In this document: one piece after another, positions 2,776 through 41,462 of the stretch
How positions within the stretch are numbered: the first letter of the stretch is position 1
Layout of the letters: every line of letters starts with the position of its first letter
Source of the DNA: Polytrichum commune
Taxonomy: Eukaryota > Streptophyta > Polytrichopsida > Polytrichales > Polytrichaceae
DNA length: 64,000 nucleotides
Direction: 5' to 3'
NCBI GenBank assembly: GCA_950295325.1
Contig: OX485806.1
Coordinates: 53,439,169 to 53,503,168, forward strand
The notes under the pieces: generated by a model
The model's database searches: none
Told to the model about the DNA's origin: nothing
The model's input: only the letters and a program-made list of their open reading frames with translations
Position numbers and translations under genes: made by a program

Positions 2776-3655
2776 ATGGCTATCTCAAGAGTAAGATGAG
2801 CCTTGTCACCAGGCCTTTGGGGAGCTCAAGAGCAAGTTCTTTTAACAAGATGTGGTTAAGATTCCGGGTTTTCATAAGCATTTTGAGGTGCACATGGAGG
2901 TGAGTGACTTTGCCATTGGCGGATGGTTAATGTAAGATGGATGGCCATTGCATATAAGAGCATGAAACTCGATGGTTGTCCGACCTTGTCCAACTTGTGC
3001 AAGAAATGGCTATCCCAAGAGTGGGATGAGCCTTGCCACCAAGTTCTCATCGCTGCCCGTGCTCAAGTTTGCGGAATTTGACAAACCTTTTGAGGTGTAT
3101 ACGGGGGCGAGTAACTTTACCATTGGCGGATATTGATCCAAGATGGATGCCCATTGCATATGGGAGCATTAAGCTTAAAGGTTTTCGAACCTTGTGCGAC
3201 TTGTGAAAGAAATGGCTATCTCAAGAATGGGATGAGCCTTGTCCCAAAGTCTTTGGGGAGCTAAAGACAAAATTCTCTTGCCACCCGTGTTCAAGTTCGC
3301 GGAGCTTGACAAACCTTTTGAGGTGCATACGGGGGGCGAGTGACTTTGCCATTGGCGGATGGTTAATATAAGATAGATGGCCATTGCATATGAGAGCATT
3401 AAGCTCGATGGTTATCCGACCTTATCCGACTTGTGAAAGAAATGGCTATCCCAAGAGTGGGATGAGCCTTGCCACCAAGGCTTTGGGGAGCTTGAGGGCA
3501 AGTTTTCTTCGCCGCCCGTGCTCAAGTTCGCAGAGTTTGACAAACCTTTTGAGGTGCATACAGGGGTGAGTGACTTTGCCAATGGCGGATTGTTGATGTA
3601 AGATGGATGGCCATTGCATATGGGAGCATGAAGCTCGATGGTTGTCAAACAAGAC
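2776..3655 (+). repeat. Tandem array of an RT/RNase H coding segment (4 units of about 230 bp)
   Basis: Four units start with the TGGCTATC motif at about 2,776, 3,006, 3,212 and 3,442, spaced 230, 206 and 230 bp; the second unit lacks about 24 bp. Each unit encodes the RT-RNase H junction: a 'KKWLSQEWDEPC' start, a 'LKFAELDKPFEVHTG' segment and 'DFAIGG', then a 'GWP-AY-SMKLDG' end. In an ordinary gypsy element this segment occurs once. The unit length is not a whole number of codons, and the units carry stops, so the array is not a working protein repeat. Related arrays lie at 54,119-54,467 and 62,590-63,260. Confidence 0.85.
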
Positions 3656-3785
3656 AACCAACTCATGACAAAGAACTTCTTTGCCGTTGTGCATTGCTTG
3701 AAGATGTGGCGACACTATTTGGGGTCGCACAAAACAAAGGCGTGAACAAAGGTCTACATGGACAATGTGTCCTAAAAGAATTTTG

Positions 3786-3839
3786 GGGAAAGTTACAGCA
3801 TGAGCGTAGAGCGGTGAGCGTCATGTTTTCGTGAATTTC
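3786..3839 (+). repeat. MULE left terminal inverted repeat
   Basis: This is the left end, starting GGGAAAGTTACAGCATGAGC. It aligns with the reverse complement of 18,645-18,697 with one or two small gaps. The shared core CATGAGCGTAGAGCG is exact, and the inner ends both contain TGAATTTC. Confidence 0.85.
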
Positions 3840-5311
3840 TCCGCTCGCTTTTCAAAAATTTATTGAAACATAAGGATCCTATTACCACTGAATTTGGTCC
3901 GGACAAAACTGTAAATGTATATTTTCAGGGAAAAGAGTACCCCAAATTTGTGGAAGGGTGTTATATATATAGTGAAATTAGGGCTGACGTCATCATTTAA
4001 ATGAAAGGGTTATTTAAATGAGGACCGTTCAAGGTGGAACTGAAATTTTGTTTTAATTAGTTTACAAATTTGTTTTAGTGTTTAAGGCTAAGGGCGTAAT
4101 TAGGGCTGGCTCCATCATTTAGATGCGGGCATCCTCGAAACAATAATTTAAATGGCGAAGTTTATACAATCCAACAAGTGAATATTCTTGTGCTCGTTAA
4201 TCGGTCATGTAGGTAGGTCCCCTCAAATATGTTCATTAGGTGTTGCGTCTAGGATGGGGATCATACTATAGAGTATATAGTCCAATCTTTTTTATTTGTT
4301 TGGGTTTTCATTTTTGTAGCTACATCTAACCACATACCACTCAAAGATAGGAGTTCATTAAAATAAGCAACTGAATTAAGCACGTCTACTTTAAGCCCAA
4401 AACCTCTTGACACATGGCTCTTTTGAAGTGGCTAGAAAAGGGTGATTATCACGTACGAGCATAACTTTCATCCATACATTATCTAGACTTGACCCCTTTA
4501 GGTTTAATGCTGATTGGCCTCAAATTTTGATGTCAAGTTACTAAGATACAATAGTACTCAAAGTTACATACTATTCTAGGGTTTTCACGGTGGATGAGTT
4601 ATAGATACGTTCGTATGCAATAATTCCCTCCCCCACCTAGATATAAAGCTTATATGATGTGTGGAGAATGGAAACAATTACTAGGTCAAGGGCTTTTACT
4701 ACTTCATATAAGAAATTATATGGCAAAGAGTTTAAAATCGAGCTCCAGCCATTCCAAACATCACTTTAGAGACGCATGTGCCCATAAACATAACCAAACT
4801 CCCCACGGGTGTTTGGAGGCAATAAAAATTATTTTTTTGTGTTAAAATGCTATTCATATTTTTAAAAATGCAAAATAACTATTGAAGGAAATGCATTGTC
4901 CTTCTAGTGAGATTATCCAATTGAAGAAATGAGTTAAAACTATGGTTCAAATACGGTAGCATTTATGGAAGAATACAATATATATGTATATATTTCTAAG
5001 CTTTAAAATAAACAAAATGCACTTCAACAATTTATATACAATTGACATAAAAACGGAAGACATGTCCTTCCTAGGTTTTGTTAGATAGAGTCAATTCAGT
5101 GTTCAAGTTTGAAGTGTGCACATGCATTTCAGTGCAAATGGCTTAACTCAAACTTTCAAACTTCAACTTCTTTGAACTTCTTTGACAAGTCTAGAATAGC
5201 TATGACACAAAGAAACTTGTAGGTGTTTTATTTTAAAAAGAAATGGCCATTTGAAATGGCTACATTATGCACGTGGCGAGAGAAAAGAAACAAACATATG
5301 GATAGTCTTGA
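3840..5311. other. MULE left subterminal region, no gene seen
   Basis: This AT-rich stretch lies between the left terminal repeat and the end of the minus-strand methyltransferase-like gene. No reading frame looks coding. It presumably holds the 3' UTR and terminator of that gene and transposase-binding subterminal DNA, but I could not identify a specific motif. Confidence 0.5.
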
Positions 5312-8300
5312 TCAAGGTGAACCAACATCGAAACTCTTGTCACATTGATCAGCCTCGACATCCATGTATCTAAGCACTGTAGGGTTGAAAAATTGACGTG
5401 GAGAATCTGAAAGGATTGGAGATGGGCCGCGTATGAAATCCTGTGCTATACGTTCGGCATATGAAGGTAAGGCGAACAAAATAGGAGGACTCATGTAGAC
5501 ATCAGCGTGGCGGATCAAACGTCGTGCGAGACCTGCGTCACTAAATAATAAAACAAAGTCAGCATGACAAATTGTATGAATACATCAAATGTTTGAGAGA
5601 CTTAAGACATGGAGTTAAGACGCACCGCAATACTTGCGACCCTTCTTCTTCTTTGGCGCAATGTCTTCCTTAGAATCAGAGTCTGTGGTCGAATCCGCGC
5701 GCTCTTCTGGTTGCGGGATTGCATCCACGTAAGGCTTGAGAAGCGCCTCGAAGATTTCTAAATCCGGCTCCAACGCTATGAGGTGTCGGTTTGAACGTTG
5801 GCAAGCAATGACAGAAGCACCTGCATTTTGGGAAACGGAAATTAGATCGTGGAATGCAAAAAACTGTTGTGAACGATGAAGGGAGAGATTGAAGACCTAT
5901 ACTAGGGCTCCAGTCGCAGACGATATCACGCTCGTCTGTTAGACACTCGATGAAGCACTGAACAAAGGATGGGTCCTTCTCACGCGAGCCACGCCAAGGA
6001 AGTCCGGTAGGGCGTAGAAGCTGGGAATCGGTTGTCGTGAAGTTCGTCAAGTCGTTGCGCTCTTCGGGAAGGATCTCCATTTGTACGAACTGTGGTCGCA
6101 ATCAGCGAGTGCGGAACTTGGAACTAAGGCGTGCAAAGACCTTAATGTTGAAGTTATGGGTCTGTAAGACAACCTCAAGGATTAGTAGATATTGAAACTG
6201 ATTGTCGGATTGAGAAATTCAAATTATGAACATAAAAGATAATACCTCTTTCTGGTGTGGAAGGGAGGAGGCCATGGGAATGGGATTATAGCCCCACCAA
6301 TCCCGGACAATCGTAAAATCATAGATTTTAATTTTACTATCTAACTTCTTCTCGATTCGGCGGTCTTTGGGATGGAAGAGTAGAACAACTCCGTCATCGG
6401 TCAAGTGACAATCTGCGAAGGCGAAGAGTTGGTCAAAGTAGTCTGTCTCTCGCTTGTTCCACGATGGTACGGACATGGGGGAGATGACAGGCACGACCAA
6501 GTCTTTGGGAGCGTCAACAATCACGAGATCAATTCCAGGATGCCTAGGCCGCATTTGCATCGATTCACAAGGATAAGTACGGCCCACCCCGGCCTGTATG
6601 AATAAGAGTAATGGAAAGCATGAGTTACCGACAAAAAAAAACATCACAAGTCCAAGATAATTTTCAAATTGATAGTGTTAGTGAGATATGGTATTGTGTG
6701 ACCTTGATAATGTGGTCTACGATACGCACAAGCTGCGGATCCATGAATTGCTGGTGTTCAAACTGGTTAAGCAAGGCACAGAAGTTTCCATGCTCAAGAA
6801 ACATCGGTAGGGTCGTCTTAAACGGCGAAGACGAAATGGCACCTACACCTTTCGGGGGTGGTACACCACGGCCAGAGTGTGTGATATGAAGAGTTTGGCT
6901 AGATTGAACATCCAAGTTGGAAAGTCTTGGTGATTGCGGATTCGAAACCGTGCGTTGCGAAGTCTGAGTCGAAGCCAAAGGAGCTCGCTCAGGAATTTGA
7001 ATTCCTGCAGGTGGGGCTGCCACAACGGAACCGTCGCGAGAACGAACCTGCCCTCGACGTTGAACTTTTGGCTTCGGAGCAGGTTCAGGCTGAAATGCCT
7101 CGTCGTCGTCGTTGTCGTTTAAGTCAGTGACCATAGGAGCCGGTCCTCCTGCAGATTGTTCCGGGATAGGGACGAGGTGTTTTTCCTCCTCAGGAACGAA
7201 GTTCGGTTGGCACTCGAGGAACCAACCACCTGTGAGCAACACCTCATTGGGAAATCGATTGCGTTGGTCTTCGGTCCAAAGTTCCTCAATTGGCGTTTGT
7301 GTAGACGGTTTGAGCTCGACATGAGCCGGAACTTCCCAAGCCGCAAGAGCACGTTTGGCGATGAGCTCTTGCTTCATGTACCTGCATATATGCGTTACAT
7401 TTAGTAAGGGTGATAGAGACAAAGAGAACACTGAATCAAACAAGAAGTCAAATCATACAAACCTGTAAAACAAGCGGCCCGCTAAAATTCCACCATCAAT
7501 CTTTAGGAGCTCTGAACCTTTCAGAAACCTTGGGCTTGCATTTTCCGAGAGGTAGAAGGGGAAAGCCTTCTTCCACAATAGCGATCTCCATTTCTCCACG
7601 TATTCTGCCGGCTTGAGAATAACGGAGCTCCACTCAATGTTGATCTTAAGTTTAGCGACATACTTGTCCATGTGGTCTTGAAGGAAAGTAGACAACTGAC
7701 ACACATTATGAAACGATGGGTGTTAGAAGTAACGACGATTACAACGGATTAAAAATGAAGAGACTAGAGGAAGTAAGTATCGTCATACCTGAGCCTAGAG
7801 AGAAGCCCTTGGCAACCAGGCATCAAGGAATTTGTCCTTCATTGGACGATCTAGTGGAAAACGGTAGGCTGCCCGTTCCTCGTCCGTTCCGTTCCACAAT
7901 TGCAACCATTTTCCTTTGAAGTCTTGATGGACCTTGGTGCTTGCAATTTTATGAAGTCGCTCAACGGTCAAGTCCAATGATTTTCCGCTAGTATAGTGTT
8001 TATTGAGCTGGGTGGAAAATGGAGAATTATATTAGAATTGAGAGTAGAGTTGAGTTGAAAGTTGAAAGTTGAGTTGAGAGTTGAGAGTTGAGAGTTGAGT
8101 TGAAAATTGAAAATTGAAAATACCTCTTGTTCAAATAACTCTCCATTGGCTGGGTTGGCGATTGCAACCATCTTGTCGAACCTTTGGCTGCGCCAATGTT
8201 TCACACACTTCGTGATCGCTTTGTCCATCGCACTCCAGACTCCAGGCCCAGTCCTCTCATTCTCGGGCACGGTCTCGTAATAGTTCGAGCAAGCAGCGTC

Positions 8301-9541
8301 GGATGCAGCAGCGCATTGTCTCTGTACGACAATAATTAAGATGCAAGAAACGTATGATGCACTTCATAATATGAAAACGATAAGCACATAAATTTGGAAA
8401 ACTTACCGCATGGAGGAATTTAACGAAAATGTCCATGGTGAGTGGATACCATGACGGTACACGGGGTTTATAAGCCTCACAAATAGCCATGTCCTCTTTG
8501 CTAATAAGACCTTTGAAATCAGAAAGTTTGAATGTGCCGAAGGTTCGAATTCTTTGCAACTTGGCAATAGTACTGTCTTGAACATGATCATGTTCCGTGG
8601 ACCTGTGAGCGACGAGATGAATATTAAAACAAGGTTCACTGAATAAATGCAATATGAAATTAATGAAAATGGATGTGCAAGTATACTTACCAGTTGATGT
8701 CGTTCATGGCGTTGAGGAGGATTGAGCATTGCCCACGTGCGTCGAGAACAATGCAGTCAACGGAAATGTACGAGTCAGGATTATTGTAGTGGTACTTGTG
8801 GATGTAACCCATCCAAGCCATCACACGGTGATTGCCTTCGTAGACGTAAAAGTATTTGTTCCGAAACTGATTGAGATCAGGATCAGAGGACAAATACTCT
8901 TCGAACTCATCATTAGCGGACTTCCATAGCGGGTTAGACCAAATGGAGTCGTCCTCTTGAACCGCTAGCTCGTTGTCGGAGATGTCGAAAGGAGACACGT
9001 ACAATACTCGATTTCCTTCTCGATAGCCTTTGACGAACTCGTTCGCCAACATCTCAACGTCCGAATCGACAATTGGACGCACCTTCGGGTAGGTCTTGAG
9101 ATGGCAAAGAGGAATAAGGAATCGAGACTTCTTAATGGGTTTGGTGCGAAGCTTGGAGATGACGGTGTTATAATCACTCTTCTACAGCAACCTCATCTCA
9201 TTTGCACTCCACATGGGGTCCTTGTCCTGCAGATGAGGGGGCATGTGAACAATGCCAAGTTCAACACCACCAGCTGGACGTAAGGGCTTTGTCGAGCGTT
9301 TCTCGCTCGACTCGGGTGCTTCTTATGTGTCCTCTTGTATGGTATACGCTTCCTCCACATGTTGGCAAGTATCGAGAAGGGGTTGATCGGTGGATGGGGC
9401 AATCGGAGGAACATCCTCTTCCACGACTGCAACACGTGGAGAATGTTGAGAGTCCGGGGGAATGCTAGACTCAACGGAATTTGTCGATGGAGGTACGGGC
9501 ACATCGGATAATGCCATCTGAAAGGTAGGCAAACGACTCAC
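5312..9541 (-). pseudogene. MULE-borne gene: ParB-like region plus permuted DNA-methyltransferase-like domain
   Basis: Ten exons join in one frame with GT-AG introns: 9541-8691, 8602-8407, 8321-8124, 8007-7789, 7695-7463, 7381-6703, 6593-6246, 6161-5897, 5820-5626 and 5532-5312, totalling 3,405 nt (1,134 codons plus stop). Exon 1 has a ParB/sulfiredoxin-like signature: 'RPIVDSDVEMLANEF', then 'YEGNHRVMAWMGYI' near 8,816-8,858. Exon 6 is a proline-rich linker. Exon 7 holds a motif-IV-like 'DLVIVDAPKD' (6,501-6,530) and 'GVVLLFHPKD'. Exons 8-9 join to give a motif-I-like 'DWSPSIGASVIACQ' and 'ALEPD'. Motif IV before motif I is the order of permuted N4-cytosine/N6-adenine methyltransferases. DAPK replaces the usual DPPY, so catalysis is doubtful. 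Four in-frame stops (TAA near 9,323, TAG near 9,178, TAG at 7,795-7,797, TGA at 6,102-6,104) break the frame; at least three fit C-to-T decay. The true start could be the ATG at 9,517, directly after a strong acceptor, which would extend the gene upstream. Confidence 0.7.
8040..8121. repeat. Short tandem repeat (GTTGAGA/GTTGAAA) inside an intron
   Basis: A run of 7-10 bp variants of GAGTTGA and GAAAATT fills most of the intron between exons 3 and 4 of the methyltransferase-like gene. It is a microsatellite that probably grew by slippage. Confidence 0.85.
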
Positions 9542-9797
9542 AATACACTTAGAAAAAGTATGAATTACTAGAAATCAGCAATACGACTAACAACTAAAGG
9601 ACTCAATAAGACATAGTTGTCACAACATGTAAAACTATGACTAAACGACGAGTAGCTAAGACACAATGAAGCATGTCCGACAAGTCACTGTTGTAAACAG
9701 AGTCAGCCTCCGCTCAATCTCCACTTGAGAAAACTGCATACAAAAAATACATGAAGATGGATTAGAATAAGTGCGCCAACGCGACAGTATATATTCA

Positions 9798-10905
9798 CGG
9801 GTCCCAGTTGAAATCAAAACATTTTCAAAAAAATTCAAGAGGTTGGGCCTCTGGGCTGAGCCCATCACAGGCACCAGCCCTCACTCTCTATATTCGAAAA
9901 CCAAGTATTAATTCACATTCAGGGGTCCCTGCATTGGCGAAGGGACCCTCCTAGTTGAAATCAAAACAATTTGAAAACAAATAAAAAGGTTGGGCCTCTG
10001 GGCTGAGCCCATCCCAGGCACTAGCCCTCACTCTCTATATTCGAAACCAAGTATATATTCACACAAGGGACCCTCCCAGTTGAAATCAAAACATTTTGAG
10101 AAAAAATAAAGAGGCTGGGCCTCTGGGCTGAGCCCATCCCAGGCACCAGCCCTCACTGTCTATATTCCAAAACCAAGTATATATTCACACAGGGGACCCT
10201 CCCAGTTGAAATCAAAACATTGTGAAACAAAAATAAAGAGGCTGGGCCTCTGGGCTAAGCCCATCCTAGGCACCAGCCCTCACTCTCTATATTCGAAAAC
10301 CAAGTATATATTCACATTCAGGTGTCCCTGCGTTGGCGCAGGGACCCTCCCAGTTGAAATCAAAACAATTTGAAAAAAAATAAAGAGGCTGGGCCTCTGG
10401 GCTGAGCCCATCCCAGGCACCAGCCCTCACTCTCTATATTCCAAAACCAAGTATATATTCACACAGGGGACCCTCCCAGTTGAAATCAAAACATTGTGAA
10501 AAAAAAATAAAAAATTGGGCCTCTGGGCTAAGCCCATCCTAGGCACCAGCCCTCATTCTCTATATTCGAAAACCAAGTATTAATTCACATTCAGGGGTCC
10601 CTGCGTTGGCACAGGGACCCTCCTAGTTGAAATCAAAACATTTTGAAAACAAATTCAAGAGGCTGGGCCTCTGGGCTAAGCCCATCCCAGGCACCAGCCC
10701 TCACTCTCTATATTCGAAACCAAGTATATATTCACATTCAGGGGCCCCTGCATTGGCGCAGGGACCCTCCTAGTTGAAATCAAAACAATTTGAAAAAAAA
10801 TCAAGAGGCTGGGCCTCTGGGCTAAGCCCATCCTAGGCACCAGCCCTCACTCTGTATATTCAAAACCAAGTATATATTCACATTCAGGGGTCCCTCACTC
10901 TCTTT
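9798..10905. repeat. Eight-copy tandem array with two unit lengths (about 125 and 147 bp)
   Basis: The anchor GGGCCTCTGGGCT recurs at about 9,846, 9,994, 10,118, 10,244, 10,391, 10,518, 10,665 and 10,811. Spacings are about 147 or 125 bp. Long units carry an extra segment with a short inverted repeat, GGGTCCCTG and CAGGGACCC around TTGGC; short units lack it. Every unit also holds GGGCCTCTGGGCTGAGCCC, itself partly palindromic. The array lies between the two minus-strand coding blocks of the MULE, either in the upstream region of the methyltransferase-like gene or in a long intron. Confidence 0.9.
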
Positions 10906-10969
10906 ATTCTGAAACAAACACTCCTTTGAGCTCAAACATACAACAGTATAGGGTTTTGAATTCACATAC

Positions 10970-12390
10970 CTTATACTTTGAGTCCTTTTGTGAATACCTG
11001 GTCCGCTTCTTCTCCACTCCTTCGTCCTTCCACATATTCGCTAATTCGTCCACAAATGACCCATGGGCATATGAAATCGATGAAGATGGACTTACGTTCT
11101 CCAGGTGTACGTCTATAAATTTGGTGGTGCCCTCCATCCTTGTAACTGCATCTCCTCCTTGATCTGCCATTTCCTGTAAAATGATATGATCCACTGTTAA
11201 CACCTTTTGACTCCCAATCACATCCCTAAAGCTACTACCCCTTGTATCCCCTCAGACCCTAAAGCTTCTCTATGCTGGTTACTTTAGAATTTTAATAAAT
11301 ATGTCTTCAAGCAGCAAAGCCTATACGGCTGAATCCAAGAACATTTCTGGGTGCTAATAATCCACCACAACCTAACGAATGCCACAATCCTTTTCTAACG
11401 TGCCTCCCTCACCTCCCAGTTCCGCTTGTGCAACCAGGCCACTTCAAGGACCAGGCCCGTCCAACCCTAACCCGTGTCTTTCTCTTCCAACCCTTACCGG
11501 GTCCCTCTCTTCCCGGGTCCCTCTCTTCCTGGGTCCCCTCTTCCCATGTGCCTCTTTGCAAGTTGGGTTATTTTTTAACTTGTAATTAAATATCTAACTG
11601 CCCTTCCTGAAACATTCATACATTTGCAAACCCAATCAAAACATTCTTCAATATCAACTTTACAAATCACGGGTGAAATATAAATCAATGGTTCTTTGGT
11701 GAGATTCATCTGGATCCTAATCCGTTGTCAGATTATCATAAACATCGGACGAATTTCCATATTTTCACCCTGTCCAGGGTTTGGGATAAGTACCAGTAAT
11801 CCCTCTTCTAATTCGCCTTCCTCTCCAAGTTTCGTGCATTCCATCACATCGCGTTCTTCGACTTCGAATTCATCTTCGTTGGGTGCGCCCTCACTTGCAG
11901 CACCTTTGTGCTCTTCTTGCTGTCCAAAAGTTTGACCAGCCATTGTCTCAATTTCTTCGCACTGAACACATCAAGGCAAGGAAGACTCTGACTGAAGTTT
12001 AATACTCATCTTTCAATATTTTAGGGTCTTAGAACTTACAACTTTATCGATCCCTTCTTCGTCACTGTCGTGTTCGAATCCCAAAGAACCACTCTTCGAT
12101 GATGAGCGCCTTCTACATTCTTGCTCTTCAATTGCATTATTCTTGTCCCCTCCATCTTCACCCTCAACATTTTCTACAACAGCATCCAGGTTCAACACCC
12201 GCATCTTGATAGTCTTCCCAAACATTTCTGGCTCGTCCTCATCGTTCTTATTTGCTTCATCTACTAGTCGATCGTCTTCGCAATAACCAGACGAATCCCT
12301 CTTCCGCAACGCGTTCCGTCGCAAAGCCTTGGACCCACTGAATTTCATACCCCCCCCCCCTCTTCTTCTTCCTGCCCCGCCCTGCGTCAT
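10970..12390 (-). CDS. Small charged protein, or N-terminal exons of the methyltransferase-like gene
   Basis: I do not recognise this protein. Three exons fit GT-AG rules in phase 0: 12390-12040, 11961-11794 and 11173-10970. The start is basic and glycine-rich ('GRRRGGGGMKF', with 'KALRRNALRKR'); the rest is strongly acidic (runs such as 'DEDEPE' and 'NEDEFEVEERD'). Donors are good (GTAAGT, GTACTT, GTATGT). Another ATG at 12,424 is out of frame because of an 11-G run at 12,350-12,360. The third exon ends in phase 0, as does the acceptor just before the ATG at 9,517, so this block could splice onto the ParB-like exon and make one 13-exon gene with the repeat array in its intron. Alternatively it ends at a short exon near 9,656-9,735. 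It starts about 650 bp from the divergent + strand genes. Confidence 0.45.
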
Positions 12391-12424
12391 TCACTTTATC
12401 TATTTTGCTACTTGTACCCTCCAT

Positions 12425-13039
12425 GGCTGGATACTTCGATCAAAGAACACAAATTTGTAAAACAACGATAACACCCTAAATCCAACTACAACGCAACTTG
12501 TATTTGAATGACCTAGTCCTCCGAATCCCTTTCCTTTATATTTGATTTCTGGCAAGCTATGTCATCGAATTATAATCCCGCGTTTAATAAAACGCGGAAT
12601 CCGATATTAGATATCTGACAACACTGCCATCAGTTACTAATCTATTTCGAATTTGTCAATATATTTACGCATCTCCCGTGACAATGACGGCCTCCATAAA
12701 TATTTTTCCATACAAGGTACAGACACCTCTAAGGTTTAACTTCAGCATTTCGGCATAGCATATATTGGGTAATCAAGAATGTGTTATTATTTGGTGCGTA
12801 GGAAAATTAGTCTATACTGACATGTATCATATTTAGTGGTCATAAAGTAATGACTATTACTGGAGTACATTCTAATCCTATATGAAACAGGTTGTCCAAA
12901 ATTTACTTTAATAAATTTTGACTATTAATTGATCTAATAGGTTGTCAAATATTCGGGTATTTGTGTCTACCCAAAGTGTATATAATACCCGATTGTTGGT
13001 ACCCTTTTACTTCATGTCATCTCATCATATTCTTCTTCA
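12425..13039. promoter_or_regulatory. Divergent promoter region of the MULE
   Basis: This AT-rich gap separates the minus-strand coding block from the + strand frames. For the + strand, TATATAA at 12,979-12,985 lies 55 bp before the ATG at 13,040, a usual plant spacing for a short 5' leader. I saw no equally clear TATA box for the minus strand. A shared region of this kind would let both transcripts respond to the same silencing. Confidence 0.5.
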
Positions 13040-13477
13040 ATGGGTACTGACTCACGCCTCCCAAGCCTTGCTCCATTAGATGCTCCTGGTTCATCTCAAA
13101 TTCACACCACGTTTTCCTTCGATGGATCTCCAGGCGTCAACAACATGAAGAATCTCAATCCACCTGACTGCTCAGTTACTCCTGCGGTCGTCGTTCACAC
13201 TCCTAAACCACAGACTCCATCTTTGCGGGCAGTTGATGCAACACTGATACAGAACAAGTCTACTTTCAAGATTCATGCCTATTCTAGAGTAGGGGTTATT
13301 AAACCTGGCACGTACTCTAGATCCATATTGAGGAGTGCCAAAGGTCAGAAACTCGATTGTGCAGGATGCACTGCAGTTCGTAGTTTAGGGATTGACCATT
13401 GTCATAAACATGACAATGACAAATATGGCAAAGGGCCCCATATGGCAAAGGCCTCATTTTCGTCTGGCACTCCATGA
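13040..13477 (+). CDS. MULE-encoded protein of 145 residues, unknown function
   Basis: This open frame follows a TATA box by 55 bp. The N-terminal half is rich in serine and proline. The C-terminal part holds cysteines and histidines: 'CAGCTAV' near residue 115 and 'DHCHKHD' near residue 125, which may bind metal. It ends about 195 bp before the next open block (ATG at 13,672). It may be a separate small gene or the first exon of the transposase gene; no convincing donor decided this. I do not recognise the family. Confidence 0.45.
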   Translation: MGTDSRLPSLAPLDAPGSSQIHTTFSFDGSPGVNNMKNLNPPDCSVTPAVVVHTPKPQTPSLRAVDATLIQNKSTFKIHAYSRVGVIKPGTYSRSILRSAKGQKLDCAGCTAVRSLGIDHCHKHDNDKYGKGPHMAKASFSSGTP

Positions 13478-15692
13478 TGTATTGTTCACAATACTGTTCA
13501 TACAGTTTATTAATATTTCTCATAATTTACCAAACATTTTCTGACTACATTCTGTATATGTCTGGGATGTCCAACGTCTTCATCAACCTCTCATGTATAT
13601 ATCCCATTGTTTCCTTTCGATCCCCCTTTTGCAAATTCCTTCTCACATAGCATTGTCAAATTGTTTCTCAATGTCTTCCGCTGCTGTCCAAGCTCCACTC
13701 GTCGATGTCATCAAATTTGTTTCTCCTGGATCTCTTATCCCTACATGCATACCTCCTGGCCCTCATGGAACCGCTGATCTCACTCCCCAGTGGCTATCCA
13801 TTCGTTTTGGTTTCGATGCTGATAGCTTATGGTTAGAGACAGATGTTGTCGATCCGGAAACTCAAAATGTCCTTTATTCCTTATACGTCCAGCCCGTTAC
13901 GTTAGACAATAATGCTTGCGTTTGGAAACTCAAGCCCGGAAGGTATCGCGTCTTTGGCTTGTCAAAGTCCATGAATGCTACTACAGTCCTCCTCACTCCT
14001 CGCAGTTCCTCTACATTGTGCACTGAAGCCCCCTTACTATCTCGTGTCAAGATCGAGCCAGGTCTCCGCGTTAGCATCGATTTGTCCGATTCTTCTGATG
14101 ATGAGGGGATACCTTCCCATCCATCAATCCGGTCTACTGCTAAGCGTCCATCTCCCTCCTCTTCTCAAGATTCACGTAGGACTACTCCTTTCATTATACC
14201 CTTGCAAACTACAAAACTGATAAACATTTTCCCTCCCTTCGTTCCCTAAGTAGCATGCATGGAAACAAGTCAGTTCTTAAGAAACTGAATTATGATTCCA
14301 TCTGTACTGAAAACGTAGATTTCCTGCCACCGTCGTTCAATGGGGATGTAATCTTCATTCTTCCTCCCACCCTTCCAACTGCCGTCCATAAGAATGCTAA
14401 ATCTATGGAAGGTATGGACAAACGTTACGATGGCCATATATGGACAAAGACTATGACTACTAACATCAGTAACACGCTGGGGCTGTCATTCCGGTCGTCT
14501 AACTGTGTAGGTCATCTTCAATGCCACAATCCCAAATGTGGGTTTCTGCAGCGGCCTGAACGCGCATATGGAGTGAACGAGGTCGAGTTTGAAGGTTCTT
14601 CCAAAGATGCCTTCCCTCTTGCAGACGCTCCACCTCCAACTTCAACATTAGTCTGTAAGATCTGTAAAGAACCTCCTGTTTGTGTAGCATCTTGTGATGC
14701 AAAAATCTTCTACGTTTTTGGAGATGATACGCAAGAGCATGCTTGCGTCCATGTAGGCAACCACAAACATCCTGTCAAGGTAGGAGACTATAGGGGCACG
14801 CGGAAGATAATCGACGATTTTCTCGAACAACATGTTGAGCGCAACCTGCAGGCTACCATTTCCAAAATAGTCTTAGAAACTAGCAAGGATATTTTAGGTA
14901 ACGTATTGCTCCGCGAAGAAGACGACCCTCCCACCTTACTTTCTCTGGAACAGCTAAAGCCTATCTTCCAATGCTGCAAGGAGCTCAACTCCCCCAACTT
15001 AAAAAACCGTGTCTACAGTTTCAAGTATCTACGCAGATATGGCGTTCTTGATGGCATCACTAAGCTCAGAGGGCTTAGCAACTGGGCCTACGTGCAACGA
15101 AACATGTTTCCAGGCCAAGGTGACGACTCCGACAAGGTTTTCATCTTCAAGATGTCCGAGGTGGGACCTGGCAGCGGTGTTGATCTTGTCCACCGAATGC
15201 AACCTAGCGGAGATTTAGAGCACTCATGGATGATGTTTGACCACGTCAAACAAGTTGCCAACTAGACCACCATGGCCTACCACGTGTACGACTCCTCTTA
15301 CGAACGTGTACTCACCATTGCTTGCTGTGATTTCCAGTCTGAGGACAAAGATGCTCAACTCGTTTTCTGGAAGAACCTTAACCATGTCATGGGTAGGCAT
15401 GGAATACACAAGCCGTAGTTCAAAGGTTTCATGGCTGATAGTGCGCAAGGCAATTGGAACGCTGTGCGCATCATCTACGGATCCGGAGACCCAAAGATAC
15501 CCATGGAAGGCTGCGAACGAACGTGTTATTTCCATTGGGCGCAATCCCTAGAAAAACACACCAAACAATACATCGTGCACGAATTGCAAGATCAACACAA
15601 GAAATTGTGTATGCAGTACAAAGATGCACGGTCTGTGGCAGAGGCTGAAACACGTTACTTGGCAATCAAAGCCAGGTGGACATCTTCGGGTG

Positions 15693-16758
15693 CAACTACA
15701 ACAACCCGAACCATACTAGGCAACTATGGCCTCACAATGCGCCAATTCCCATGGACGCCTTGCCGTTTGGCCTCGGGTGGGTGAGGCCACACCACCTCAC
15801 CATGAGGAGTGCCCGAAACACCATGGGCACAAGGGGGACCCCGGAGTGACACCCGGGACTTGTGGCGCCATTGGTGAGAGGGCCCAAGTGATCCTAGTGT
15901 GGGTGAGGGCCCCGGGCGTTGGGAACGCCTCCCACCCACGAAGATTAGGAGGCACAAGGGTAAGGCCATGAGTTATGCGTAGCTCATGGCGTGGTGATTC
16001 TAGAAAGCTCAAGAACACCTCAATCGGAGGTGTGAGCTAGGAGTTATGGCCATTTGAGTGGGGCGCTGTCCCAGGACAGCGCCCTGGTACAGCAGTGCCT
16101 GGGAGTGATTACCAGGACTGCCAAGGTTCAAACAGGCATAACTTCCTCAAGACTTGCTCCAATGGGGCAAGTGAGGAGTCCATCGGCATCTACATGAAGC
16201 GTAGATGAGGATGAAGTGGTTGGTTGTTATGATCAGACATCATACAAGGAAGTTATGATGGTCTGAAGCTGCTGGGGGGGTTCTAGGCCCAGCAGCTAAA
16301 GGAAAATGTCCACTTGGCCCCAACTCTTGGTGGAGAGACAAGAGGTTGGTTGACGGTGGGGTAGGGGCCCCGCGTGAAGTCCTAGAGGCTTATATGGGTG
16401 AGGTGGTGTGGCCTCACCCACCCGAGGCCGAACGGCAAGGCCTCCATGGGTTTTGGCCTATTGTGAGGCCATAGTTGCCTAGTATGGTTCGGGTTGTTGT
16501 AGTGTTGCTCCGGCAACGCGATGATCAACATAGGATTGGACTTCCATGGATGGAAGTCCACATTGGGGAAATGGGTTACCAATTAAGGGGTGAGTCCCGA
16601 AAGCAAAGTAGGAGGGTTGGTTCCCTCCTATGAACTATTGGTCCGGGGTAAGAGGAGCTATCCATTAGCATGGCGGAATGCGAAGGGTTAGCGCTCGTAA
16701 CCTTTGCTAGAAACGAAAATTGGCAAGATTATTAAGGGACCTAGCAAGGGTTGCGACA
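15693..16758. mobile_element. Rearranged LTR-B material inside the MULE transposase (inverted junction)
   Basis: 15,801-16,758 is an LTR-B copy in + orientation ending GGGTTGCGACA; its first 16 or so bases are missing. Directly before it, 15,693-15,800 is an internal piece of the same LTR in the opposite orientation, matching 62,355-62,465. The two meet at CACCTCACCATGAGG, a short match to the normal LTR start CACCTCTCCATGAGG. No target duplication is visible, and transposase coding sequence seems lost at the site. This fits a rearranged or template-switched insertion with deletion. Confidence 0.75.
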
Positions 16759-16983
16759 ACTTCCCCAAAAGCAAAGCGTTCCTGTGAGCCGCACGTTCAA
16801 CAGTTCAGCACCGCCACCGGATCTGTCACAGGTTCCAATGCCAGATAATGCGGACATTTATCCAAAAACACGAAAGTCAAAGAACATGCGCCGCTCAATC
16901 ATTTGTGCCAGTTCGAAGCACATGCAGAACATTTATTCCGCTAGAGCAATGAAGGCAAGTATTCTGAAGGTAGTAATGATACC

Positions 16984-17924
16984 CAGGGTTGTTTATCGCG
17001 ACGTCATGACGGGGTCGTGCCGTCATGACGCGTCGTGTCGGGTCGGACCCCTCCGTCACGACACAATAGGCTCCTCGTAGGGTCAAACTAGGGTCAACCT
17101 AGTAGGGTGGGTAAAATACTTACCTTCTTGCCAAGGTGGCGTCCTATGTGGCAAAAAATGATGACGTGGATGTGCATATTTCCCTTGGCATGTAAACCAT
17201 TTTGCCATTGTGTTTACCATTTTGTTAAAATCAAAGTAATAAAATATTACTAAGGAGGGTGTAGGTCGGACGGGGGAGAGGGTCGGACGGGAGGGTCAGA
17301 CAGGGGGAACGGGTGGGGAGCGCGGGCCGACGTGTGGGAACGCGGGGGAACGTGGGGTCGGATGGGGGTGAGGGTCGGGCGGGGGGGGGCGGACGGGGGG
17401 GGGGGGGGGAACGCGGGGAGCGTGTGGGAACGTGGGGAGCGGGGGATGGGAGCGGGTTTAGGAGGTTTGGATAGGACGGGATGGATGGGAACGGGATTAG
17501 GGGAACGGGGGAGGGGGGAGGGGAACGGGAGGGAGGACGGGGGGTCGGACGGGAGGGTCGGACGGGAAAAGGGAGGACGGGAAAGGGAGGACGGGGGGGT
17601 CGGACGGGAGGGAACGTAGGGAACGGGTTAGGGAACATGTTAATGGGCTAAGGGACCGAGGTTAGGATACGGGGAACGGGGGCGGACGGGCGCTAGTAAT
17701 TTTATTCCCCACTTTACCTCTAGTTTGCTGACATGTCATCACACGTGGACATCGTAACTCCTACGTGTCCGCAATGGGGTAATGTAAATACACAAAAAAA
17801 TCGGTAAAATTCAAGTCCGGCAGGATAAAGACATCATCCGGCATAATGTCGTGACGGATACGTGTCGTGACAGCACGACATTATGTCGGGATTACCCTCC
17901 GTCACGACACAATAGACAACCCTG
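16984..17924. mobile_element. Non-autonomous hAT element, 941 bp, TSD ATGATACC
   Basis: The ends are CAGGGTTGT and ACAACCCTG, flanked by perfect 8-bp duplications ATGATACC (16,976-16,983 and 17,925-17,932). CAGGG-type ends with 8-bp duplications define hAT elements. The interior has no transposase. It carries repeated CGTCACGACACAATAG and GTCATGACG motifs near both ends, as expected for subterminal transposase-binding sites, and a long G-rich GGTCGGACGGG low-complexity core (about 17,255-17,690). Removing it rejoins the transposase frame exactly. Confidence 0.93.
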
Positions 17925-18229
17925 ATGATACCTCAACCCGGTTTTGGATGCGTTGTAACTTTGCAATCTAAACCAGCTCCCACGAAATCAGTTTACCATC
18001 TCTCAATCGGTGCCTACCCAGACTGCAATTGCCCAGCGTTCAAAGAGACAATGGCTAAGCTAGGTAGACGCGGGTGTCCATTCCGACCTTGTAAGCATCT
18101 TTACTATCTCTACGTACAAGTCTGCAAACTAGAGGCCGACCATGACCTCTTCATGCATGCGCCTACCCTCAGTTTCAAGGAGGTGAAAACAATTCTTGAA
18201 AGGGGGATCTTAGCCCATGCTACAGTTTA

Positions 18230-18644
18230 AAGTCAACGGCTTTATTTATTAGTCTCATATATATGTTCTTTTTCATAAACGTGTATGACACACGTCACTC
18301 TATGTAATTTCACAATTTAGTGAATACGTATATATAAATATATTTTTTATATATATTATTTTTTCGCTATGTTAAATTTATGAATCAGTTGTACTTGTCC
18401 TTCACTTGTGCTCTTCCGTGAACATGTGTCCTTGTAGTTCTCTTCAATGAAGTCATCTATTTCCTCTAAAATTCGGTCACATATAATTTTTTTCCATATG
18501 TCAAGCCCATTTTGCACGGTTATGGGTACTAAATTCCACGGCCATAAGGCTCATATATTCGAATATTCCGAAGAATATACTATTTGAAATAATAATAATT
18601 TTATTTTTGGAAATTTTATTACTAAAAATGAAAACTCTCCGCTC
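18230..18644. other. MULE right subterminal region, AT-rich, no gene seen
   Basis: This is non-coding DNA between the transposase stop and the right terminal repeat. It holds AT runs such as TATATATAAATATATTTTTT near 18,330, likely 3' UTR and terminator of the transposase gene. Confidence 0.5.
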
Positions 18645-18697
18645 GAAATTCAGAAAATCTACGTTCTACGCTCTACGCTCATGCCCTAGCAACGCCC
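18645..18697 (-). repeat. MULE right terminal inverted repeat
   Basis: Read on the minus strand it starts GGGCGTTGCTAGGGCATGAG and contains the core CATGAGCGTAGAGCG shared with 3,786-3,839. The 11-bp target duplication follows at 18,698-18,708. Confidence 0.85.
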
Positions 18698-18708
18698 AAA
18701 GAATTTTG

Positions 18709-29484: not shown

Positions 29485-32400
29485 TCAGGATCGTTTTGCT
29501 ATCTTCATGCTCCCTGGATCGTATTGTGGGAGGTAGAGTAGGGTTCGTGCATGAGGTGTAGAGATTTGTCTTTGTTCCAATGTGTATTTTCTATCTTCTA
29601 ATGCTCTTGTTACATAGCCATGTAGTTGAATCCGATGAAATGCTGTTGGAAATGAATCTGGAAACTTTCTCACCAGATTTTGATGTTGATGTATAGCCTC
29701 ATGTAATAATGTTGTGTCTTCTCCCGCGAGTATGTCTAACGCAGATAGAAACTCTGGAAATTGATTGTTCGCCATCTCCTGGATTTCCTTAGTGAGCTCC
29801 TGGTCATAGGGTTCGATCTGTGGCAGGGAGTTGCGAGTGTCAATGTTTGTGTAAAAGGCTTCGTGGTGACAATTGATGTGTGTAAGGGCCCCGATGCAAA
29901 ATCTGGTGAGGTAGAATGTTGAGTTTGTAGTAGTAATTTCAACTACTCCCTTTGGGACTATTAAATCTTTTAGTACCCACATAAAAGTGAGGAGGTCCCT
30001 GGCTCCCGAATTTGCTTGAGCCCACAAAATTTGAAACTGCTATTTTGATAAGTGGGTTTGAAGTTTGAGATCTGGGAGGTTGCTCGAGTTGAAGATCATA
30101 GGCTTATAAGCCTGGTAGTATTGATAGATGCTAATGGGAGGGGGTAGGTTTTTCATTGTCGCTGTGATGAGGTTCCCTTGGTCTTCGATGTTGCTCAACC
30201 CTAGCAAATTGTCCCATTTCAGATGTTGAGTGGCCTCTTCCTCTTGTTGCTCTAATATCGCTTGTAGATCATCTCTCTCCGTGGTTGCTTGGTATAACTC
30301 TGTTTTGAGAGTTTTCAGTGTATGGCTAATCTTTGTCGTGACTCTTTGCAGAAGAGTCTGTATCGAAATTTGATGTTCGGTGTCGGAGGTGGATCGCTGC
30401 TGTACCCAGAGGTCAAAAGCCTCGATTTTTGCTAATTCTTGCATTCGATCCGGGTTTACATGTGTAGCTGTGTGTAGAGCTAATTTCTGTATCTGTGGCT
30501 TGTAGCCGTCGACTTCTGTGTGGAAGGCTTCGAATTCCGCCGCGGCCTCTTTGTGAATTTCGGAGATTGAGTGGCGGAGGTGTCGAAGTTGCTATGCGGC
30601 TATGGCCGCGATGCTGGTGCGATTGTTGAGGTCAGTCTGCATGACTTGTCTCTGCATCAGAAATTTGTTTTGTTCTTCCATCATGGCTTGTTGGTGTTGC
30701 TGGATTGTCGTGGTGTGCTTCTCTTGGAGAAGCTCATGCTTCAGCTGGTAGTCTGTAAGTTGTACCTTGTTTTCGGCGCTCTCTCGAAGTTGATTTTCTG
30801 CCGCAGCATACTGAGTCTCTAGGTGTGCATATTTTTGTTGCAGCTCCTGGTGTCGAAATGAGGCATCTTCGGCGTCTTGGCGACTCTTCTGTTCCGCTAA
30901 GGTGTAATCAGTCTGCAGGTGTTGTAGTTGGTTTTCTAGTTCCAAGATACGGTTCTGTGAATTAGGATTTTGATCTCCAAATACTGGAATAAGTTCCCTT
31001 TTGTGTCCTGCTGCGGTGTTGAAATGGGAAGTGCCTGTGATCCAGTTCTCCAAGAGCTGGCTAGTGTGATTGAATTGTTGTAGAATGTTTTTTAGTGGTT
31101 TTGAATCAAATTGTGAAGTACCATTTGTGCTTATAAGCACAGTTTGATCTGTTGCTGGTTCCATTCTTGCCACCAGAATCTGTGGCTTTTCGCCTTGTTT
31201 GGATGAGTTCCCTTTTGTGTGTGATGGTTCTCCTTTTTCTGTGCCTAATAGTTCCATTTCAGTGTCATGCTTTCTCTTCTTGGAACTGGGGACAGATTTG
31301 TCCTGAAGTAACGAGGTCTCTAAAAAACCTGCTTCAATCTCCTGCTGTACGGTTAAGAGTCCTTCAGCCATAAGGATCATGGTGAGAGGAGGTCCCACCA
31401 TTGTCTTGAGCAATGTGGATTTTTCCCTAAGAAGTCCCTCTTTGAGATTCTTGAGTTCTGCCTCTATCAACTCGCGAAACAATGCTGGCCAGTCTACTGG
31501 CTTGCCATTTAGAGCATCAGATATATATGTAATTGCTTGACAAGGAATCGTATTTGTGTTTGTGTGTAATAACAAAAGAGAGTTAAAGAACCTCAATGGC
31601 CGTTTCGCTTCAGGAATAGTACACTCCACCACTTTGCAGGTTCCTGCTTTGCTTCTGGCCTTGTCGCTGTAACTTGGAAAAATATCTGCAGCTGCAACCT
31701 TAGGAGTTCCTGGTTCTCTTCTCGCGGAAAATGGTGTCAGAAAAAATACTACACGCATTTTATTCCTCCAATCCTTGCTGAAAATTGGGAAGACTCGGCC
31801 ATTCAAAATAGACTGCATGGTCTCTAAGTTGAGATTTGTGAGCACTTCTTGAATGACAGAGACATTTAACATCTCCCATGTGACCCTTGTCACAAACCTA
31901 TCAAGGCCTATAAGTTGCAAAAACGTCTCTTCTTCTAACGAAGGCTCAAAATCAAGGGCGGCCATTTCGGTGCTAAAGACAATGTCATCAACTGCCTTCG
32001 TCTGGGAAGCTTTTCCCTTCTCTTTACTGGGAGTCCTCATGTTTGAAGAATGAAACACTCTGATTCCGAATGTGCTTACTATATTGGCAAGTGGAAACTT
32101 TCTTCGAAGTGAAAAATTAAGCGGCAGCTGAATGAGCTTCTGGATCAGTCGAACCATCAGTTGAGGTCCCTTGTAATCAGCTGTCCTTGTGTGATTCATA
32201 ATGATGCTGGTTGTTGAAGTGGTTAAGGTTCTTGGTTTGTTGAAGGCCTTCTTGCTCATTACTTTAACAGTAAGTTGGTTGAGATGATAATCGTGGCCCC
32301 TACTTGGTTTACACTGATTTTGTAATAATCCAGGATATAGGCTGGTCTTACTGCTGCTTGCTTGAACATTAATCTTATTTGGTTGATAATTTTCGAAACC

Positions 32401-33543
32401 GCTTTTATCAAGTTTAATCCTCAATAATCCGAGAATTATCTCGTTTCCTCTTTTATTTGATGAATGGATGGATGAACCCCTTGGATGTAAGTACAAATTT
32501 TTAAGTACGAGTTGTATGAAAATTATGCACCATATCCCACACATATGTTGTAACCACTTAGTGGTTAATTCGTTTGACGTCGTATATTTTGAATGTACTT
32601 TGTACTTGTGATATGTGTTGTTGTTGATGGTTGTCTCGCGTAATGTGTTTGGTGGCGAATTCTCCGATAAACATATGTATGGGGTACTCCTCTTGAAATC
32701 ATATCCTTTTGTTAATAATTGAGTAAATATTTTCTCAATTTCCGTAGTTTTTACGGCGTTGGTAAATTTCTCATTCACAGTTTCTTTTCTCATTGGTTGT
32801 ATAGAATAACATCCAAGCATTTTGTGATGGACTTCATCATAATCCGGGGATGTAAAAGTCTCCATTTCTCCTTGATCAAAAGTGATAACTTGGTTGGGAT
32901 TAACCCAGTCGTATGGTAAAAATTTCTTCGATCGCCATCGTCCCAATTGTTTTTGATGAACGGTCTTGATCTCCAAGGTATCGTCATCATGGATTCTTGT
33001 GATGGTGTAAGGGCCTACCCATCTTTGTTTCTCAAAAGGTGTCTCGACTTGTTTGTTTGATAGGTATTTGGTCACTACTTTTTGCCCTTCGTAAAATGAA
33101 CATGTCTTCCTTGATCCTCCTTTGTGGTGGTTGGTATAATTGGATCCGTTTGTATAATTTGTACTTGTTTTATCAAGTGGTGAGTTCGTGGCGTCATTCA
33201 CTTCTAAAACATATGCCTTTGCTTCAAGGGGTTCATGGTAAGGTTTAATCTTACTCATGTTTACCCTCCCAAGAGTTTCTCCTTGCAATGTGCTTACATC
33301 CACGGTATTGTTATCGTAAGTTTCTGTAATTTCGTAAGGTCCACTCCATCGGATTCTAAATTTGCCTGGACCGGGCTTGTTCATCCTTTGATGCCACAAA
33401 ATCTTTTGACCCTTGTAAAATTTGGGATTTTTGTTTTCTTGCGAATTCTCCTTTGCTTGATGAGTGTTGTTAGTCTTTTCCTTGGTATCATAAGAGGGTT
33501 TCTTGCAATGTTTGCACCTCTTGCCTTCTATTAAAGTTTTATC
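29485..33543 (-). CDS. Integrase C-terminal GPY-like modules plus long extra coding region (two in-frame TAG)
   Basis: This frame opens at 33,543, one frame behind the integrase frame that ends at 33,531. It starts with the integrase tail: 'FYKGQKILWHQRM', then 'WSGPYEI' and 'LGRVNMSKIKPY' (about 33,235-33,378). A second, similar module follows ('FYEGQKVV', 'WVGPYTI', 'LGRWRSKKFLPY', about 32,905-33,099). Next comes a unique region of about 700 residues, with 'FVTRVTWEMLNV' and 'VDWPALFRELIEAELKNL', which faintly recalls plant retrotransposon accessory proteins. A glutamine-rich coiled coil lies at about 30,592-30,940. TAG codons at 30,592 and 30,040 interrupt the same frame, which runs on to 29,485. 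Function is unknown. It lies on the sense strand between integrase and the 3' LTR, where some Tat elements carry additional frames. Confidence 0.7.
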
Positions 33544-41096: not shown

Positions 41097-41462
41097 TACT
41101 TAGCATGATCTTAGACCACCCTAGTTGGCCCTCCCGGCTTCAACTATGTGCATTCTATATTCACCCTTTCGCTAGTACGGTTCTTAGGACACACTATTCT
41201 TCTTGACTCAATTAGTTTTCTCTTCCTCTTCGTCGTACATTAACACTACTTAGCATGATCTTAGATCACCCTAGTCGGCCCTCCCGGCTTCAACTATGTG
41301 CATCTATATTCATCCTTTCGCTAGTACGACTCTTAGGACAAATTGTCTCTTAATCTAATTTTCTCTTCCTCCCCAATGGATTCTTAAAATTTCACTCGTT
41401 TAACTTGATCAACCCTCGCTCACTATTTTCCAATTTCTCTAGTCCGTTGTAAAGTTTTATCA

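Follow-up and report, generated by a model that had tools for sequence, protein, structure and literature searches.

What does a gene that joins a ParB-like region to a methyltransferase-like domain do for a transposon in a moss? The question is raised by a 64,000-nucleotide stretch of the Polytrichum commune genome (assembly GCA_950295325.1, contig OX485806.1, positions 53,439,169 to 53,503,168 of the forward strand), called here the window, which holds a transposon resembling Mutator-like elements (MULEs). An earlier note on this DNA had described the gene as part of the element. The gene or a remnant of it is present in all 12 complete elements examined, in constant place and orientation; this accessory gene is a real, established component of the element, and the note's refuting condition, absence of the gene from further copies, does not hold. 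What goes beyond that note, and what we think is the main finding, is that each element family carries palindrome arrays of its own, and that the accessory gene and the array appear to have been exchanged together as a cassette.

The genome searched is 408 Mb long, and seven large contigs (C1-C7, 42-78 Mb) total about 406 Mb. The 15-mer terminal core of the element, CATGAGCGTAGAGCG, occurs 48 times in it, and a backward-read control occurs 0 times; in the window, chance alone would give 0.61 matches to the core when as many as three mismatches are allowed. Twelve inward-facing pairs of the core lie at most 19 kb apart, and every one was examined; pairs at least 28 kb apart and single ends were left out. 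The 12 complete elements are the window copy (W), E01-E10 and E11. Subfamily A consists of W, E01, E05, E06, E08 and E09, and subfamily B of E02, E03, E04, E07, E10 and E11. Target-site duplications of 9-11 bp, read by eye, flank 11 of the 12, including the 11-bp duplication already reported for the window copy (Table 1); the same by-eye reading of the flanks found none at E05. Because the E11 transposase, searched in two parts against Pfam, matched no family, the label MULE-like rests on the duplications and on a CxC..CxH motif and a residue block, recognised by eye, which we take to be SWIM-like and DDE-like.

Palindrome arrays

In each of the four families examined (A, B, and two related ones, X and L) the palindrome array is of a distinct type, and the types of the remaining families are absent. 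The sites are 18-24 bp long and mostly 64-170 bp apart. Counted at up to three mismatches over 16 loci, palindrome type agrees with element family in every one (A 6/6, B 6/6, X 3/3, L 1/1). None of the four types occurs at this threshold in the loci of another family or in the window outside the element, and Markov controls for each type gave 0 sites in 5/5. The arrays of A, B and X are placed between the accessory gene and a divergent transposase gene.

The B arrays are built of 64-bp tandem units, each with the perfect palindrome AATCCCACGGATCCGTGGGATT (11 sites in E02, 8 in E03, 24 in E04, 22 in E07, 17 in E10 and 23 in E11). Over 106 such units, including seven skipped by the mismatch filter, conservation is 0.935 in the 22 palindrome columns versus 0.689 in the other 42, and the best-scoring 22-column window of the unit is exactly the palindrome. 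All six B elements also have a solo site at a corresponding position upstream of the accessory gene; in E03 it precedes the ATG by about 100 bp.

The A elements carry the palindrome CCCTGCGCNNGCGCAGGG (2 sites in E01, 13 in E05, 3 in E06, 1 in E08, 22 in E09 and 3 in W) within repeat units of three kinds: about 167 bp (E01, E05, E08), 127 bp (E06, E09) and 126-147 bp (W). No blastn match exists between the units of E01 and those of E06 or W. When the 167-bp units are compared with the 127-bp ones, identity is 92% in the 24-bp palindrome and 13-51% in the 47-bp flanks aligned without gaps; with gaps, the left flanks have no similarity (485/500 shuffles score as high). Compared with the other A units, W is 72-83% identical in an 18-bp core and 21-47% identical in the ungapped flanks, and its gapped flank alignments are not significant (28 to 407 of 500 shuffles). 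The third arm pair of the palindrome, which in W is G-C and not A-T, is symmetric in all 52 A sites.

Family X has the palindrome TGTTTGTGCGCNNGCGCACAAACA in units of about 104 bp (7 sites in X1, 4 in X4, 4 in X5), and the single L locus, L032, has seven sites of AGGCCTCGGATCCGAGGCCT. The palindrome centre CGGATCCG is common to B and L032 (L029:6476-7808, L032:1472-5991), which also group in the protein tree, and the centre TGCGCNNGCGCA is common to A and X, a pairing absent from that midpoint-rooted tree.

Cassette exchange between subfamilies

Compared with the B element E11, the A elements E01, W, E05 and E06 are 86-96% identical in DNA, mostly 90-95%, near the left end and over the right part of the element, where the transposase gene lies. 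Between these shared ends blastn finds no match except one 359-bp stretch in W. The synonymous divergence (dS) of the transposase between E01 and E11 is 0.12 and 0.07 for its two parts, with 269/288 fourfold sites identical in the first; over the compared A and B elements it is 0.05-0.12, at 93-95% amino acid identity. The accessory proteins of E01 and E11 are 37.7% identical, with 64/178 fourfold sites identical, and A and B versions in general are about 38% identical (37.7-38.0%). Accessory gene and array are deeply different on what is otherwise one element, so that they have most simply been swapped as a cassette on a near-identical transposase backbone. In the tree of accessory proteins A groups with the moss Ceratodon (89/97) and B with L032 (89/91); the tree is midpoint-rooted, both branches are unstarred, and the program warns of long branches.

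These comparisons bear on the idea that the arrays exist for the sake of the transposase, of replication or of hairpin formation, and that the accessory gene is unconnected with them. Palindromes can extrude, and the arrays are physically linked to both genes. The transposases of A and B are, however, nearly the same while their palindromes differ, and the A palindrome persists across elements with differing repeat units, which makes this explanation quite improbable.

The accessory gene and its copies

In W the accessory gene has ten exons with GT-AG introns in a single frame, as the earlier note had modelled it, but the model spans 9517 to 5315 of the minus strand and does not extend to 12390. 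The motifs quoted there, GNHRVMAW, DAPK and SIGASVIAC...ALEPD, are all found in it. An AG acceptor immediately upstream of the ATG at 9517 leaves room for a further exon. The acidic open reading frame (ORF) at 12390-12013 is conserved at 75-84% of its amino acids in four other A elements, with one stop in the E01 version; we could not show that it is part of the gene.

Four in-frame stops make the W gene a decayed copy, that is, a pseudogene (Table 1). Five copies have intact frames: E01 is fully open over 1135 codons, in ten exons as in W and with every splice site retained, and E03, E04, E07 and E11 are open across 1079 modelled codons in eleven exons. Damage in subfamily A amounts to one stop in E05, two in E08, a frameshift in E06 and the loss of most of the gene in E09; in subfamily B, E02 has one stop and a frameshift, and E10 an exon insertion. 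NG86 ratios of nonsynonymous divergence (dN) to dS are 0.34 for E01-W, 0.35 for E08-W, 0.49 for E01-E05 and 0.78 for E01-E08; five B pairs fall in the range 0.30-0.47. Between A and B, dN is 0.66-0.67 and dS is saturated; the frames are still open and the exon pattern is closely similar. The nearest named relatives are three hypothetical proteins of Ceratodon purpureus.

A captured passenger of the Pack-MULE type, without function for the element, would account for the seven of 12 copies that are broken (W, E02, E05, E06, E08, E09, E10). It would hardly account for the constant place and orientation in 12/12, for relatives in Ceratodon and in two more families of this genome, or for frames that stay intact despite saturated dS, and we find it scarcely credible.

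An intron of the gene contains short tandem repeats of the TTGAGAG type in E06 (L019, L020; element positions 3485-3862) and E01 (4578-4741), greatly expanded in E06.

Related families

The transposase homologue of X1 is 36-50% identical to the transposase of E11; it is encoded by the minus strand and is transcribed divergently from the accessory gene. The termini of X1, X4 and X5 read ...GCTCACAAGATAGCACTCCCC or similar and resemble the end of the window element. The arrangement therefore probably predates the A/B family. A 583-aa protein, P0004 (63 member sequences), encoded on a 7.2-kb public contig (ena), shares 95% identity with the X1 ORF in the part that was searched, so that family X is present in another public record. 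Kinase-like ORFs upstream of the X1 accessory gene (L031:100-1261; Pkinase E=0.21), in a stretch common to X1, X4 and X5, are perhaps a third gene of the X family. In L032 the accessory gene and the transposase converge and may therefore belong to two neighbouring copies; this locus was used for its protein and palindrome site only.

The methyltransferase-like domain

A methyltransferase-like domain with motifs in permuted order had been proposed for the C-terminal part of the protein, and a full-length match in the sister family bears this out. The X1 ORF (L031:3727-5457) scores 32.4 bits against PF01555, above the cut-off of 26.7, over profile positions 1-216 of 221, and the match starts at VDLIIVDIPY, the position of motif IV. 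The window's own family stays under the cut-off: three of four relatives match below threshold (best 0.0022), P0001 matches at E=0.0024 and E01 and E11 do not match PF01555, this last search having used sequences two residues short at exon 8. Families of DNA methyltransferases in PHROG are matched by 4/4 relatives, phrog_3008 by all four (best 2.5e-5), and the A1 profile finds "Adenine specific DNA methyltransferase (DpnA)" in the PDB (5hek, 5hfj; E=0.011-0.012) over motifs X and I. Judged by these matches, the methyltransferase-like assignment is right.

Motif I reads GTGAS in B (E03, E11) and X (X1, X4, P0004), STGAS in E01, SIGAS in W, STGAS or NTGAS in Ceratodon and ATGVS in L032; the G-x-G-like turn that binds S-adenosylmethionine (SAM) is largely preserved. 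A description of motif I as degenerate was dropped, since setting the exon-8 donor at 5897 and rejecting 5903 yields TGAS in the intact copy and in the Ceratodon proteins.

The canonical catalytic motif IV is [DNS]-P-P-[YFW], the DPPY type. The family departs from it, with D-x-P-[D/E] in 17/19 sequences and exceptions in W (DAPK) and X1 (DIPY); E09, in which the region is deleted, is outside this count. The variants are DAPE in E01, E05, E06, E08 and three Ceratodon proteins, DVPD in 6/6 B elements, DIPD in X4, X5 and P0004, and DLPE in L032. With motif I mostly kept, the family thus retains a SAM-site-like turn, with a conserved acid in place of the catalytic aromatic residue. The earlier note had taken DAPK as a sign of binding rather than catalysis; motif IV does suggest a loss of canonical catalysis, but DAPK is, by this alignment, a private variant of W and not the family motif. 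The Y of DIPY in X1 was likewise treated as private because X4, X5 and P0004 have DIPD, and the idea that X1 might be an active enzyme was set aside.

The protein might nevertheless be an active DNA methyltransferase that places N4-methylcytosine or N6-methyladenine on the element encoding it, a role suggested for algal ParB-methyltransferases in the available text of PMC12477816. The full-length PF01555 match and the retention of STGAS or GTGAS in motif I would suit such an enzyme. Its motif IV would not, being acidic throughout apart from the two private variants, and we consider this activity decidedly unlikely.

The genome has 83 matches to PF01555 at E<=1, many of them probably relatives of the accessory genes; those read were L031, L032 and two siblings. 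A pattern search of viral contigs gave 73 matches with no relative among them, and tblastn of the X1 ORF against phages gave nothing at E<=1. Strong PF01555 matches (55-98 bits) at C10:4592-5212, C10:15117-15353 and C12:29682-30278 of G000, outside the seven large contigs, are perhaps bacterial contamination of the assembly.

Proposed function

We lean, if only slightly, toward the accessory gene being a regulator that binds element-specific DNA, acts against silencing in the manner of VANC, and has long travelled with this moss MULE-like clade. The protein would bind, as a dimer, the family-specific palindrome array between the divergent genes. Binding would mark or open the array region and keep the element's own genes from being silenced by the host, in the way VANC protects VANDAL elements. 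Site binding or clamping would fall to the ParB-like N-terminus together with the middle part, while reading DNA, binding it or modifying it in some unusual way would be left to the methyltransferase-like C-terminus. Palindrome binding, the dimer mode, and anti-silencing rather than repression are all inferred from sequence. The four protein-site pairs predicted in this way make specificity directly testable by binding assays. More tentatively, the gene and its sites could form a ParB-parS-like module on eukaryotic nuclear transposons, in which a ParB-like protein loads on element-specific palindromic arrays and overrides silencing; protein and array would move from one transposon backbone to another as a cassette, and D-x-P-[D/E] would be the remade motif IV of a domain derived from a methyltransferase.

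Binding to the palindromes might instead repress the element or control its copy number. Such autoregulation would suit both the position of the arrays between divergent genes and the solo site upstream of the B accessory genes. A positive effect that depends on the array is, however, the better fit to the presence of many site copies and to the precedent of VANC, and we regard autoregulation as unlikely.

Several observations weigh against the anti-silencing regulator. Because the array is part of the cassette that was swapped, linkage by itself could explain why it matches the accessory type. Sites are few in two A elements, E01 and E08, and the L032 sites do not lie between divergent genes. 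The 167-bp A units also resemble the 127-bp ones over about 20 bp on the right side of the palindrome (4/500 shuffles as high); the conserved block is therefore the palindrome plus a short right stretch, and describing the A units as wholly unlike was too strong. The closest A copies are near neutral, as the ratio for E01-E08 indicates. The ParB-like region has no ParB match in Pfam, hhalign against seven plasmid ParB domains gives a probability of only 3.8% (E=0.011) over 30 columns that end before GNHR, and a comparison with YbdM fails (74/100 shuffles as high).

Other results bear on the same region. The pattern IPLCRL..VRPI.D.DV..L...F..G...GNHR..AW is common to A and B and partly to X. 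Only 1/100 column shuffles scores as high as the hhalign match to ParB, and without the stretch preceding GNHR the alignment covers 56 columns including GNHR, a score reached by 0/100 shuffles. Direct comparison with Pfam, PHROG and the PDB gave nothing convincing; the single match of a PDB profile search, to a saposin (E=0.89), was rejected. AlphaFold models are of low confidence (pLDDT 37 for the ParB-like ORF of the window alone, 28 for the three Ceratodon proteins). The ParB-like region of the earlier note finds weak support in one profile alignment, of low probability but scoring above nearly all shuffles, and none in Pfam or YbdM; its ParB-likeness is likely, though unproven.

Features of the window

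The transposase gene of W is broken twice relative to E01, at about 15694-16756 and 16984-17924. The second insert is about 940 bp long and G-rich, and its ends look inverted. Elsewhere in the window, at 29485-41099 on the minus strand, neighbouring stop-to-stop frames of 1572, 949, 983, 183 and 184 aa resemble one very long broken gene.

Table 1. Coordinates of the window element W and its parts (positions within the window).
Feature	Positions	Strand	Details or basis
Whole MULE-like element, subfamily A, 14.9 kb	3786..18697	.	Termini and 11 further complete copies with the same ends
Terminal core CATGAGCGTAGAGCG	3799..3813	+	Motif scan, up to 3 mismatches
Terminal core CATGAGCGTAGAGCG	18669..18683	-	Motif scan, up to 3 mismatches
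Target-site duplication AAAGAATTTTG, left, 11 bp	3775..3785	+	Read from sequence
Target-site duplication AAAGAATTTTG, right, 11 bp	18698..18708	+	Read from sequence
Accessory exon 1	8691..9517	-	Acidic N-terminus and ParB-like region (8691-9181); in-frame stops 9325 (TAA), 9184 (TAG)
Accessory exon 2	8407..8602	-	
Accessory exon 3	8124..8321	-	
Accessory exon 4	7789..8007	-	In-frame stop 7797 (TAG)
Accessory exon 5	7463..7695	-	
Accessory exon 6	6703..7381	-	Linker
Accessory exon 7	6246..6593	-	Methyltransferase-like domain begins; motif IV position (DAPK in W; DAPE in E01, E05, E06, E08)
Accessory exon 8	5897..6161	-	Motif X, start of motif I; in-frame stop 6104 (TGA); donor GTCTTC
Accessory exon 9	5626..5820	-	Remainder of motif I, acidic ALEPD
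Accessory exon 10	5315..5532	-	Followed by TGA
A-type palindrome site CCCTGCATTGGCGAAGGG	9927..9944	.	4 mismatches to reference core
Tandem array between the divergent genes	10066..10896	.	126-147-bp units
A-type palindrome site CCCTGCGTTGGCGCAGGG	10326..10343	.	
A-type palindrome site CCCTGCGTTGGCACAGGG	10599..10616	.	
A-type palindrome site CCCTGCATTGGCGCAGGG	10746..10763	.	
Acidic ORF	12013..12390	-	Conserved in E01, E05, E06, E08
Transposase gene remains, divergent from accessory gene	13545..18230	+	ORFs and comparison with E01

Comparison with known systems

Bacterial ParB-parS systems use palindromic, iterated sites. The moss module is like them in its ParB-like N-terminal signature and in sites of this kind, and unlike them in its weak homology, in its fusion to a methyltransferase-like domain within a eukaryotic transposon, and in that no ParA partner was noticed. 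The bdelloid enzyme N4CMT reportedly belongs to the host, has a canonical catalytic motif and is not transposon-borne. The moss protein shares with it, as presented in the accessible part of its description, a bacterial-type methyltransferase in a eukaryote (PMC8885841).

Another likeness is found in algae. The element Sola1-1_Ec32 of Ectocarpus is described, in the portion of PMC12477816 available, as encoding a 1104-aa protein with ParB-like and methyltransferase parts opposite to its transposase, and similar proteins are known from transposons of green and red algae. The moss and Ectocarpus proteins agree in length (about 1100 aa), in combining a ParB-like region with an N4/N6 methyltransferase and in lying on the opposite strand of a large DNA transposon, a likeness by description, the ParB match being weak. 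Sola1-1_Ec32 belongs to another superfamily and lineage, and that portion describes neither a palindrome array nor cassette exchange for it. In the open-access literature we found no report of a ParB-methyltransferase gene on a MULE or in a moss, of palindrome arrays, or of cassette exchange; the accessible part of a MULE survey (PMC6446971) mentions neither moss nor methyltransferase. ParB-methyltransferase genes on algal transposons are thus already known from the part of PMC12477816 cited, and the palindrome arrays and the cassette exchange are new as far as the open-access papers searched show.

The arrangement also resembles that of the VANC proteins, which, in the available parts of the published accounts, bind short tandem motifs in VANDAL MULEs of Arabidopsis and cause loss of methylation (PMC5735166, PMC10398659). 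Both are accessory proteins of MULEs, and the moss elements do carry the VANC-type feature of a family-specific motif in noncoding tandem repeats, with protein and motif changing together. The VANC motifs are 8-9 bp long and have one orientation, whereas the moss sites are palindromes of 18-24 bp; VANC function is experimental and that of the moss protein predicted, and the two are likened by arrangement, homology not being claimed. If the proposal is correct, a bacterial-type domain pair would gain a defined role in eukaryotic transposons and would offer candidate sequence-specific epigenome tools. The moss elements would then carry, beside VANC, a second form of the plant-MULE anti-silencing module, in which a protein with bacterial-type domains is paired with its own tandem target motif.

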